NCBI RefSeq assembly: GCF_016862995.1
Contig: NZ_BOOA01000009.1
Span: 1-64,000 of the forward strand
Source of the DNA: Acrocarpospora phusangensis
Lineage (GTDB): Bacteria; Actinomycetota; Actinomycetes; Streptosporangiales; Streptosporangiaceae
DNA length: 64,000 nucleotides
Direction of reading: 5' to 3'
Part shown: piece after piece, positions 22,691 through 26,331 of the stretch
Position numbering within the stretch: the first letter of the stretch is position 1
How the letters are laid out: each line of letters opens with the position of its first letter
Notes under the pieces: generated by a model
Database searches by the model: none
Seen by the model: only the letters and a program-made list of their open reading frames with translations
What the model was told of the DNA's origin: nothing
Position numbers and translations under genes: made by a program

Positions 22691-22704
22691 TAGGCTGAGC
22701 CGCG
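22691..22704 (+). promoter_or_regulatory. -10 element of a leaderless promoter
   Basis: TAGGCT (22691-22696) ends seven bases before the GTG start of the threonine aldolase gene, with no ribosome binding site between. Confidence 0.5.
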
Positions 22705-23729
22705 TGATTCATGGGAAGAGTTTTGGGAGCGACAACCACGCCGGAGTGCATCCGGACGTGATGGCCGCCATCGCGGCGGCGAACGTGGGCGACGCCGTGG
22801 CGTACGGCGCCGACCCGTGGACGCGGGACATGGAGGCCGCCTTCCGCACCGCGTTCGGCGAGCACACCACCGCGTACGCGATGTTCAACGGCACCGGCGC
22901 CAACGTGGTCGGCCTCGGTCTGATGTTGCGTTCCTTCGACGGCGTGATCTGCCCGGACAGCGCCCACATCAACGGCCACGAGGCAGGCGCGGCAGAGCGG
23001 GTGCTGGGCACCAAGCTCCTCCCGGTACGGACCGAGGACGGCAAGCTCCGGCCGGCGGATGTGCTGGGGCAGCTGGAGGCGCTGGGGAACGAGCACCACA
23101 GCCAGCCGAAGGTGGTGTCCATCTCACAGGTGACCGAGTGCGGCACGCTCTACACGGCCGACGAGGTGGCCGCGCTCGCGGAGGTCGCCCACGCGCACGG
23201 GCTCTACCTCCACATGGACGGCGCGCGGCTGGCCAACGCCGCCGCCGAGGCGGACTGCTCGCTGCGGGCGCTCACCACGGACGCCGGGGTGGACGTGCTG
23301 AGCTTCGGCGGCACCAAGAACGGCGCGCTCGGCGCGGAGGCGTTGGTCATCCTCCGGCCGGAGCTGGACGCGAGCGCGCTCTTCCTCCGGAAGCAGGGCA
23401 TGCAGCTCGCCTCCAAGACGCGCTTCGTCTCCGTCCAGCTGACCGCCCTCCTGACGGACGACCTCTGGCGCCGGAACGCGGCCCACGCGAACACCATGGC
23501 CCACCGCCTGGCCGACGGGCTCGCCGGGCGGTTCCCATTCCGCTACCCCGTCGAGTCCAACGCGGTGTTCCCGATTCTCAGCGAGAAGGCGATCGTCGAA
23601 CTCGGCCACCGCCACCTCTTCTCGATCTGGGACCGCCCGACCGGCGTCATCCGCTTGGTCACCTCTTTCGACACGACCCCCGAAGACGTCGACACCCTCA
23701 TCGCCGACCTCCACGCCCTCGGCGGCTAG
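22704..23729 (+). CDS. Threonine aldolase / beta-eliminating lyase family protein
   Basis: PLP enzyme (341 residues) that likely cleaves L-threonine or allo-threonine to glycine and acetaldehyde. Family blocks: SDNHAGVHPDVMAAI, FNGTGANV, HINGHEAGA, HMDGARLANAA and the PLP lysine in SFGGTKNG. GTG start, leaderless. It ends beside the parS cluster. Confidence 0.87.
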   Translation: MIHGKSFGSDNHAGVHPDVMAAIAAANVGDAVAYGADPWTRDMEAAFRTAFGEHTTAYAMFNGTGANVVGLGLMLRSFDGVICPDSAHINGHEAGAAERVLGTKLLPVRTEDGKLRPADVLGQLEALGNEHHSQPKVVSISQVTECGTLYTADEVAALAEVAHAHGLYLHMDGARLANAAAEADCSLRALTTDAGVDVLSFGGTKNGALGAEALVILRPELDASALFLRKQGMQLASKTRFVSVQLTALLTDDLWRRNAAHANTMAHRLADGLAGRFPFRYPVESNAVFPILSEKAIVELGHRHLFSIWDRPTGVIRLVTSFDTTPEDVDTLIADLHALGG

Positions 23730-23743
23730 ATCCCCCGCTGCTC

Positions 23744-23759
23744 GGTTTCACGTGAAACA
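23744..23759. promoter_or_regulatory. parS site 1
   Basis: GGTTTCACGTGAAACA, one base from the consensus 16-mer TGTTTCACGTGAAACA that ParB binds to segregate the origin region. Confidence 0.93.
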
Positions 23760-23822
23760 CGGAGAGCGTCGGTGTCTCACCTGAAGCCCGGGGGAGCGTC
23801 ATCGGGTGATCGCCGGAGTCTT

Positions 23823-23838
23823 GGTTTCACGTGAAACA
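23823..23838. promoter_or_regulatory. parS site 2
   Basis: GGTTTCACGTGAAACA, one mismatch to consensus, 79 bp from site 1. Confidence 0.93.
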
Positions 23839-23900
23839 CCGGGGGAGTTGGCGGCAGCCGCGTGGATGAAGACGGCCCGACGGCGGAGTCCCGGCTTCCG

Positions 23901-23916
23901 TGTTTCACGTGAAACA
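23901..23916. promoter_or_regulatory. parS site 3
   Basis: Perfect consensus TGTTTCACGTGAAACA, 78 bp from site 2. The 335-bp gap between the threonine aldolase and parB contains four parS sites and a terminator and no credible gene. Confidence 0.95.
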
Positions 23917-23979
23917 TCGCCTGGGCGTTTCGACGACGAGTCCATGACGGCCAAGAGATCGGCAACGGCGACACCAACG

Positions 23980-24016
23980 AAACAGCCCCCGACCGGATCC
24001 CGGTCGGGGGCTGTTT
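23980..24016. terminator. Bidirectional terminator overlapping parS site 4
   Basis: Perfect 17-bp stem AAACAGCCCCCGACCGG with a 3-nt loop ATC. It lies just past the parB stop on the minus strand, so it ends the rsmG-parA-parB transcript. The last five bases of the right arm are also the left end of parS site 4. Confidence 0.88.
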
Positions 24017-24027
24017 CACGTGAAACA
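24012..24027. promoter_or_regulatory. parS site 4
   Basis: Perfect consensus TGTTTCACGTGAAACA. Its first bases are shared with the terminator stem. Confidence 0.95.
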
Positions 24028-24064: not shown

Positions 24065-25111
24065 CTACTCCTCGAAGGAGCGCATCTGGTTGGCGGTATC
24101 CGGGGCCATGGTGCCGATGATGCGCTCAAGGTCATCGATCGTGGAGAACTCCACCACGATCCGCCCCTTCCGACGCCCTAAATCGACCTTCACCCGCGTC
24201 TCGAAGTGATCCGAGAGCCGATCGGCCAGATGGCGGAGAGCGGGTGCCGTCGGCTGCTTCGCCCGCGGCTTCCGGGGAGCCGGGCCGGACTTCACGTCCC
24301 CGATGGAGACGATCTCCTCGACCGTCCGCACCGTCATGCCCTCGGCCACGATCCGGTCGGCGAGCCGTACCTGCGCGGCGTGGTCCTCCAGCGGGAGGAG
24401 CGCACGGGCGTGCCCGGCCGTGATCGTCCCTGCCGCCAGGCGCGTCTGCACCTCGGGCGCCAGGTTCAGCAGCCGGAGCGTGTTGGTGATGTGGGATCGC
24501 GACCGGCCGACCTTCTTGGCCAGCTGTTCGTGGGTCGCCCCGAAGTCGTCCAGCAGTTGCTGGTAGGCCGCCGCCTCCTCCAGCGAGTTGAGCTGCTCCC
24601 GCTGGAGGTTCTCGATGAGCGCCTCGCGGAGCATCTCGTCGTCGTCGGTGCTGCGGACGATCGCCGGGATCTGGTCCAGCCCGGCGAGCTGGGAGGCGCG
24701 CCACCGCCGCTCCCCCATGACGAGTTCGAACTGTCCGGCCCCCGCGGCCCGTACGACGATCGGCTGGAGCAGGCCGACCTCGTTGATGGACGCGGCCAGC
24801 TCGTCCAGCCGGTCCTCGTCGAACACGTCCCGGGGCTGACGCGGGTTCGGCACGATGGCCGTGAGGGGGATCTCCTGGAAGTACGCCCCGGCAACCGGCC
24901 GCAGCCCACCGTCGGTGTCCGCCGGGGGAGACTGCGCGACTCCCACGACGCTTCCGGCTCCCCCGCCCCCGTACGTTCCCCCGGGCGCGGACGGACCGCC
25001 GGGCGTTCCAGGGCTTCCGGGATTCCCCGCGGTGGCACCCGGTTCGACGATCGGCCCGGTCGGGATCAGGGCGCCCAGGCCCTTCCCGAGTCCCCGACGC
25101 TGCTGACTCAA
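24065..25111 (-). CDS. parB: Chromosome-partitioning protein ParB
   Basis: CTP-dependent clamp that loads at parS and spreads on DNA (348 residues). A low-complexity Gly/Pro N-terminus (about 17-60) is followed by the ParB/Srx CTPase core with GERRWRA (133-139), the helix-turn-helix DNA-binding region (about 180-215, LAKKVGRSRSHITNTLRLLNL split across it), and a C-terminal dimerisation domain. TTG start preceded by AAGGAG. It follows parA by 47 bp and is probably translated from the rsmG-parA-parB mRNA. Confidence 0.96.
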   Translation of the reverse strand: MSQQRRGLGKGLGALIPTGPIVEPGATAGNPGSPGTPGGPSAPGGTYGGGGAGSVVGVAQSPPADTDGGLRPVAGAYFQEIPLTAIVPNPRQPRDVFDEDRLDELAASINEVGLLQPIVVRAAGAGQFELVMGERRWRASQLAGLDQIPAIVRSTDDDEMLREALIENLQREQLNSLEEAAAYQQLLDDFGATHEQLAKKVGRSRSHITNTLRLLNLAPEVQTRLAAGTITAGHARALLPLEDHAAQVRLADRIVAEGMTVRTVEEIVSIGDVKSGPAPRKPRAKQPTAPALRHLADRLSDHFETRVKVDLGRRKGRIVVEFSTIDDLERIIGTMAPDTANQMRSFEE

Positions 25112-25158: not shown

Positions 25159-26331
25159 TCACGCGTCGGCAACCGCCGCACCGCGATACGCCATCTCCCG
25201 AGCCGCCTCCATGTACGCCATGGCGCCACTCGAACCCGGGTCGTACGTCATGACCGACTGCCCATAACTGGGCGCCTCGGACACGCGTACGCTCCGGGGG
25301 ATGACCGCGTCGAGCACGGTGGCCCCGAAGTGGGAGCGCACCTCATCGGCCACCTGGGAGGCCAGCCGGGTCCGGCCGTCGTACATCGTCAGCAGGATGG
25401 TGGAGACATTGAGGTTCTGGTTCAGGTGCGCCCGGACCAGTTCGACGTTCTGCAGGAGCTGGGTCAGCCCTTCCAGCGCGTAGTACTCGCACTGGATCGG
25501 GATCAGCACCTCCTGCGCGGCCGCCATCGCGTTGACGGTGAGCAGGCCGAGCGACGGCGGGCAGTCGATCAGGATGTAGTCGAAGTTCATCTTCGACTCG
25601 AAGGCGGCGAACGCCCGCTTGAGCCGGGTCTCCCTGCCCACCATCGGCACCAGCTCGATCTCGGCGCCGGCCAGGTCCAGGGTCGCCGGGGCGCAATAGA
25701 GGCCGGGCATGTCCGGGACCTGGGTCACGATCGACTCAAGGGGCAGGTCCTCCACCAGAACCTGGTAAATCGACGGCACTCCGGCGCGATGCTCAGTCGC
25801 CAGGGCGGTCGACGCGTTGCCCTGCGGGTCCAAGTCGACCACCAGCACCCGCTGCCCGTGCATGGAGAGCGAAGCGGCCAGATTGACGGCACTCGTGGTC
25901 TTGCCGACGCCGCCCTTCTGGTTGGCAATCGTCATCACCCGGCATTTGGGCGGCCGCGGCCAGCCTTCCTCACGACGAGCGGAATATCCGACCGGCGCAG
26001 CCGCCGTAGGTGCCGCAGCGGGTGCGGTTGTTTCACGTGAAACCACAGAACTCAGTGCCTCTCGAACCAGCGGGGAATCACCTGGGTTAAGCGGGGGCTG
26101 GGACACGACTGTCGTCCTTTCATCCGGCTGTGCATCCGGCGATCCATCGGACAGTGCTCCCCATACTGCTAGGTGCGAGTGCTCTTCCGACAGTGCCACC
26201 GGCGGAGTGGCCGGCACATCCGGCGAGACGGAGAGACGTGGCCAGCCGACCCCCGACGACTGTCCCGATCTCGCGTCCGTGAACTTCTCCGGCCATCCCA
26301 AGCCCGTCACCGCACCAGGCACGACCGTCAC
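25159..26331 (-). CDS. parA: Chromosome-partitioning ATPase ParA
   Basis: Deviant Walker ATPase that moves ParB-parS complexes (390 residues). A poorly conserved 130-residue N-terminal extension precedes the core: KGGVGKTT (139-146), DLDPQGNAST, and DCPPSLGLLTVNA. The GTG start overlaps the rsmG stop (GTGA), supporting coupling, although a later start in the extension cannot be excluded. The extension encodes VSRET (97-101) from an internal parS site. Confidence 0.94.
   Translation of the reverse strand: MTVVPGAVTGLGWPEKFTDARSGQSSGVGWPRLSVSPDVPATPPVALSEEHSHLAVWGALSDGSPDAQPDERTTVVSQPPLNPGDSPLVREALSSVVSRETTAPAAAPTAAAPVGYSARREEGWPRPPKCRVMTIANQKGGVGKTTSAVNLAASLSMHGQRVLVVDLDPQGNASTALATEHRAGVPSIYQVLVEDLPLESIVTQVPDMPGLYCAPATLDLAGAEIELVPMVGRETRLKRAFAAFESKMNFDYILIDCPPSLGLLTVNAMAAAQEVLIPIQCEYYALEGLTQLLQNVELVRAHLNQNLNVSTILLTMYDGRTRLASQVADEVRSHFGATVLDAVIPRSVRVSEAPSYGQSVMTYDPGSSGAMAYMEAAREMAYRGAAVADA
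26029..26044. promoter_or_regulatory. parS site 5, inside parA
   Basis: TGTTTCACGTGAAACC, one mismatch to consensus, within the parA coding sequence. On the coding strand it specifies part of VSRET in the variable N-terminal extension, so the site costs the protein little. Confidence 0.85.

Follow-up and report, generated by a model that had tools for sequence, protein, structure and literature searches.

Gene-end parS sites that share sequence with predicted transcription terminators in Acrocarpospora phusangensis and other actinomycetes

The DNA uptake sequences of Neisseria are arranged as rho-independent terminators (PMC2397512) and, by analogy, are the nearest precedent in working for the parS sites described here, since in both cases a short genome-maintenance motif would double as a rho-independent terminator. 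The motif is an uptake sequence in Neisseria and a ParB site here, and the construction also differs. Neisseria uses, in the portion of that report available to us, pairs of separate inverted uptake sequences, whereas here a single palindromic parS is extended or lends a half-site to a neighboring stem. The stem at the Acrocarpospora phusangensis locus repeats only the parS half-site and does not consist of two inverted copies of the motif. The nearest case of a parS merged with a transcription signal is found in Mycobacterium, where, according to the accessible text, a parS upstream of gidB overlaps a promoter and its -10 element (PMC2346475). Both mergers lie in the par region, but the Mycobacterium site involves the -10 element of a promoter and the sites described here involve a gene-end hairpin.

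On plasmid RA3, a demonstrated rho-independent, unidirectional terminator ends the stability module and is followed by a centromere-like parS (PMC7414963). Like the predicted terminator of A. phusangensis, it stands at the end of a partition operon and near parS, but the available part of the RA3 report describes the two as separate elements and does not mention base sharing there, whereas the A. phusangensis pair shares six bases. ParB of Pseudomonas aeruginosa represses promoters next to intergenic parS (PMC5521831, as excerpted), and parS affects nearby transcription in that system too, but through promoters and with no terminator overlap in the excerpt. Clusters of Bacillus subtilis ParB were no roadblock to Escherichia coli RNA polymerase in vitro, with more long pausing at 200 nM ParB (PMC10681803, accessible portion). 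Words beginning with "terminat" or "hairpin" are absent from the main text, as accessible, of a review of ParB roles (PMC7022226). A fusion of parS with a terminator was not described anywhere in the literature searched, which was available in part, included few subscription papers and did not extend to the early Streptomyces parS papers.

The window, meaning the whole 64,000-nucleotide stretch that was analyzed, carries parB (24065..25111; Pfam ParB_N, HTH_ParB, and ParB_C) and parA (25159..26331; Pfam AAA_31 and CbiA) as open reading frames on the minus strand, where rsmG and jag are also found. A plus-strand open reading frame with a Beta_elim_lyase domain (22704..23729), a threonine-aldolase-like gene, converges on parB. 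Among the best 80 titled loci listed, ParB is closest to that of Microtetraspora glauca (76% identity), followed by Nonomuraea and Streptosporangium, which marks the organism as an actinomycete of the Streptosporangiaceae type. The 335-nt gap between the convergent genes holds four parS sites. Site 1 (23744..23759), 14 nt past the stop of the converging gene, and site 2 (23823..23838) match the 16-mer with one mismatch and the 14-mer exactly, site 3 (23901..23916) is an exact 16-mer, and site 4 (24012..24027) is TGTTTCACGTGAAACA with 0 mismatches. Site 5 (26029..26044) lies within parA codons and, like sites 1 and 2, has one mismatch to the 16-mer and an exact 14-mer. The sites thus have the form of chromosomal parS, a 16-bp palindrome, TGTTTCACGTGAAACA, clustered by parAB, and with the ParB domains encoded alongside they are predicted ParB-binding sites. 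At up to 3 mismatches the 16-mer occurs 5 times in the window, compared to a shuffle mean of 0.06. The 9.1-Mb draft assembly has 5 exact 14-mer parS in total, all of them in the window, and 1 further site with 1 mismatch. These five exact sites are packed within 2.3 kb (23744-24027 and 26029-26044), four of them in the one convergent gap.

An inverted repeat at 23979..24017, a probable bidirectional intrinsic terminator, starts 47 nt beyond the parB stop codon. Its arms (23979-23996 and 24000-24017) form a perfect 18-bp stem with a 3-nt loop, so the first-pass annotation had located a real hairpin and given it one base pair too few (17 bp). For the 46-nt stretch around the hairpin the predicted folding energy is -39.3 kcal/mol on each strand, and none of 200 shuffles folded as well on either strand. 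A strong, G+C-rich hairpin follows soon after the parB stop codon, as in an intrinsic terminator. The remaining inverted repeats found in the convergent gap are the parS palindromes. A terminator scan of the window recovered only a 5-pair fragment of the hairpin, and no known RNA family was found at the locus, where the two matches (mir-492, in parB codons, and P15) were far below gathering scores. The last six bases of the hairpin and the first six of parS site 4 are the same TGTTTC (24012..24017). Five shared bases had been claimed, which is the count with the 14-mer core; the 16-mer site gives six. The T bases are carried by the base of the stem itself, and the sequence that comes next in the parB sense is GTTGGTGTCG, which is not a T-run.

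We consider it likely that gene-end parS sites also act as terminators and that the window hairpin is a bidirectional intrinsic terminator with parS as a part of it. Placed between convergent genes, the hairpin would work in both directions, with the parS half-site GAAACA/TGTTTC supplying a stem base rich in A and U. Transcripts of parB would cross parS 4 and be released at the hairpin, which would shield parS 1 to 3 from parB traffic, and transcripts of the opposite gene would cross parS 1 to 3 and then be released at the same hairpin.

The arrangement is not unique to this genome. The genus comparison comprised the window and the four other genus genomes searched, and in all four relatives a parS or its remnant abuts a hairpin past parB. 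In the roughly 190 nt read past parB, three of them (L086, L087, and L088) have an exact parS followed at once by a G+C-rich hairpin, and the fourth (L089) has a two-mismatch parS remnant before an imperfect hairpin. The L089 stem was missed by our script and folds at -20 kcal/mol, with none of 200 shuffles as good. What recurs in the genus is the abutting, not the exact six-base sharing: parS and hairpin overlap by 1, 1, and 2 bases in L086, L087, and L088. Conservation of the six-base overlap is ruled out, as only the window has it among the five genus genomes. In all five sampled genomes of g33 the parB stop is immediately followed by a parS, and a hairpin starts within or directly past this parS, an adjacency that was read by eye; the script caught three and the other two (L111 and L112) were confirmed by folding.

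Across the family, 41 genomes have a non-central parS as well as a separate hairpin, and in 14 of them, representing 8 genera, the two overlap or lie no more than 2 nt apart. The expectation under uniform random placement is 5.6 for genomes (P 0.0006) and 5.2 for genera (P 0.12), and compact placement, restricted to that part of the gap which is occupied, left no excess of such abutting (P 0.24 for genomes and 0.84 for genera). Overlaps of 1 to 6 bases, present in 10 genomes and 6 genera of the family, exceeded uniform placement (P < 0.0002 for genomes, 0 of 5000; 0.005 for genera) and gave P values of 0.005 for genomes and 0.14 for genera against compact placement. The abutting form is kept within genera; its independent recurrence across genera is not firmly shown, because compact placement by genera gives no clear excess.

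These placement tests bear on an alternative, which is that a terminator and a parS cluster are crowded into one short convergent gap and have come to share a few bases here without being functionally coupled. Four parS sites do fill the 335-nt gap, and window-type abutting is not above compact random placement when counted by genera (P 0.14 to 0.84, depending on the definition). Even so, parS and hairpin are adjacent in all five genus genomes, once as a remnant, and in the five sampled g33 genomes, and the stem base AAAC/GTTT was found in none of 20 hairpins from parB 3' regions without parS. Crowding also leaves the extended palindromes found elsewhere unexplained, and we regard it as possible but rather unlikely.

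In many relatives parS sits at the center of the hairpin and not beside it. We scored each site by how far complementarity runs outward past the 14-mer and called it extended at a score of 11 or more. The family set comprised the 145 genomes with a ParB match, of which the window and 140 fetched genomes (141) were used; G007, G017, G038, and G061, with parB near a contig end, were left out. Sites were counted at up to 1 mismatch, skipping those closer than 30 to 60 bases to the end of a locus. Forty-two of the 519 parS sites near parB were extended, compared to about 2 expected from the rate for flanks mixed across genera (0.0036). They were concentrated in the first 150 nt past parB (21 of 108 sites, 12 genera), whereas between 150 and 400 nt there were 2 among 51 sites, beyond 400 nt 7 among 136, upstream of parB 12 among 221 and in the parB zone none among 3. 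When each genus was counted as one site, the first 150 nt had 7.6 sites with at least 5 perfect pairs among 39 genera, compared to 0.32 after shuffling, and the parA 5' region had 0.44, compared to 0.72, among 53 genera. In 104 of the 141 genomes a parS is found no more than 400 nt from the parB stop, and in 22 (13 genera) an extended one. Neither parS nor hairpin was found in the 400 nt past parB in 19 family genomes, and parS only in 45. The best 80 titled loci of a longer list, which partly overlap the family set and were not added to its counts, gave, with the window, 14 of 232 exact sites with at least 7 perfect pairs, compared to a rate of 0.00011 for flanks mixed between loci. Nine titled loci (L002, L004, L006, L007, L010, L012, L026, L049, and L061) have extended sites within 400 nt past parB. 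Away from parAB, no extension was found at six loci (L295, L296, L297, L300, L301, and L302) in six of the eight family genomes searched; these loci are part of the 12-mer-core sites, and L300 is not an exact 14-mer. The 12-mer core occurs at 4 to 9 sites in each of the eight genomes.

Extended sites were found mainly at the ends of genes. In the family, 21 of 167 sites between convergent genes and 11 of 85 in same-strand tandem gaps were extended, compared to 2 of 175 within coding sequence (p 5e-6), with 1 of 12 in opposite tandem, 0 of 6 in divergent and 7 of 74 in undecided edge positions; these contexts carry some error, because the gene calling was simple and located the stop of parB correctly in 173 of 205 loci, and the counts ignore relatedness, genomes within a genus not being independent. 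The contrast between coding and gene-end sites is by itself weak against neutral mutation, because the protein constrains coding sites. Where an extended parS lay in the first 200 nt past parB, a second hairpin was seldom present there (2 of 21 genomes), compared to 47 of the 120 other genomes (p 0.011).

Outside the family, we used 64 of the 114 genomes of the class with a ParB match, ten of them from family f16, which is probably Streptomyces. Around parB, 7 of 145 sites in the 64 class genomes were extended, five of these in codons. Four of these ten f16 genomes were counted over the whole genome and have 20, 8, 22, and 18 exact parS (68 in total). Ten of the 68 are extended, the longest by 20 perfect pairs; mixed flanks within f16 gave a rate of 0.011, or about 0.7 extended sites. 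Every extended site is in a convergent gap (10 of 23), with none among 26 coding, 5 divergent, 11 tandem, and 3 edge sites. The comparison with the 42 other classified sites (p 6e-6) may count some orthologous sites of the four genomes more than once. The f16 extended stems are mostly without a T-run after the stem.

In the family, 33 of the 42 extended sites lie within 400 nt past parB or upstream of parA, and 23 of these had more T after the stem than A before it, with 5 reversed and 5 ties (p 0.0009). Taken by themselves, the 10 upstream sites gave a sign-test p of 0.18, and no bias was present at 7 family sites more than 400 nt past parB (2.0 T vs. 2.14 A). The bias past the stem is thus a property of family sites near parB and jag. 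An extended parS directly follows jag, in the jag-rsmG (gidB) gap before rsmG-parA-parB, in g40 (4 genomes), g42 (1 genome) and three of the four g46 genomes sampled. In the available account, the Mycobacterium parS upstream of gidB overlaps a promoter instead. In L222, an extended site lies some 0.8 kb after the jag match. The post-jag extended hairpins of L207, L179, L193, L209, and L215 are some 2960-2990 nt before the parB stop, and in L207 and L179 they are followed by a T-run. Because extended parS hairpins follow jag and lie between other convergent gene pairs in f16 as well, the fused pattern is not specific to parB.

This wider distribution bears on the model proposed in the first-pass annotation, in which ParB bound at parS alters termination or the 3' end of the parAB mRNA and so forms a feedback loop. 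The overlap is physical, P. aeruginosa ParB represses promoters beside its intergenic parS (PMC5521831, as excerpted) and RNA polymerase paused more in vitro at 200 nM ParB (PMC10681803, accessible portion). ParB clusters were no roadblock in that same in vitro study, as far as accessible, and extended parS hairpins also follow genes other than parB; on these two grounds ParB feedback on termination is possible but not favored, and we rate it as improbable.

Comparison within genera showed that pairing in the extended stems is kept. Among the five sequences of the g40 and g42 post-jag site, 6 of 19 pairs had double changes, and none of 500 shuffles reached the covariation score. At the parB 3' site of g6 (5 genomes) and g44 (4 genomes), double changes affected 9 of 17 pairs; the covariation score was 0.583 vs. 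0.186, reached by none of 500 shuffles, and slid controls gave at most 0.167. Further pair types were not significant in either covariation test (93 and 75 of 500 shuffles). Compensatory double changes were thus found in four genera, and stems that differ in sequence and length between the genera tested have kept their pairing through such changes. The covariation counts test pairing within genera and not how frequent it is, because the genera were chosen for having the hairpin, and they, too, ignore relatedness.

These changes also weigh on the idea that template switching at parS copies one flank to the other and lengthens the palindrome by neutral mutation, without selection. Stem sequence and length do vary between genera, and some extensions lie within codons (2 in the family and 5 of the 7 extended sites outside it). 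Template switching by itself does not account for double changes that repeatedly preserve pairing. Nor does it explain why usually the first parS past parB alone is extended (21 of 104) and seldom the later ones in the same stretch (2 of 55; p 0.004), or why extension in f16 is limited to convergent gaps (10 of 23 sites there, none of 16 elsewhere between genes; p 0.002). Divergent sites numbered only 6 in the family and 5 in f16. We rate neutral lengthening as improbable. It is very improbable that the long palindromes work as DNA, by cruciform formation or stronger ParB loading, and not as RNA, since, although they are perfect or near-perfect and centered on the ParB site, their stem letters change while pairing stays, the T-bias near parB is strand-specific and the palindromes stand at gene 3' ends.

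The reading of gene-end parS as terminators can thus be extended beyond the window. Elsewhere the parS palindrome itself would form the top of the stem, and one stretch would serve for both ParB loading and transcript release. In this family, and in one or more further families of actinomycetes, gene-end parS have probably been made into terminators repeatedly, mostly by extension of the palindrome. Judged by their sequences, these predicted terminators would terminate RNA polymerase. The benefit might be that ParB loading sites are kept where transcription ends, or perhaps that intergenic space is saved. A broader and tentative proposal is that actinomycete gene-end centromeres were selected as two-way terminators, so that ParB would load and RNA polymerase be released at the same base pairs, and that the occupancy of ParB and the end-points of transcription act on one another throughout the origin region. 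The observations bear on whether transcription disturbs ParB loading and on what determines the positions of parS. Because many gaps contain parS both with terminator-like arms and without them, nature provides a series of sites that makes both questions testable in laboratory Streptomyces, with the caution that scrambling parS in such strains may delete a terminator.

Individual loci show the range of these structures. The longest extended palindrome (L135, G142:C1), 133 nt past the parB stop, is perfect, has 31 paired bases per arm centered on parS and folds at about -70 kcal/mol. In L290, and in L031, which is probably the same genome, a parS within parB codons, about 888 nt before the stop, has nine perfectly complementary flanking pairs, and this site is hard to explain as a terminator. 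The structure in L220, 122 nt past the parB stop, is nested, with a parS-centered hairpin and outer arms that contain parS half-sites, one of them from a second parS. In L105, an extended hairpin 22-60 nt past the parB stop is centered on the variant GTTCCACGTGGAAC and adjoins a GTTCCACGTGAAAC site.
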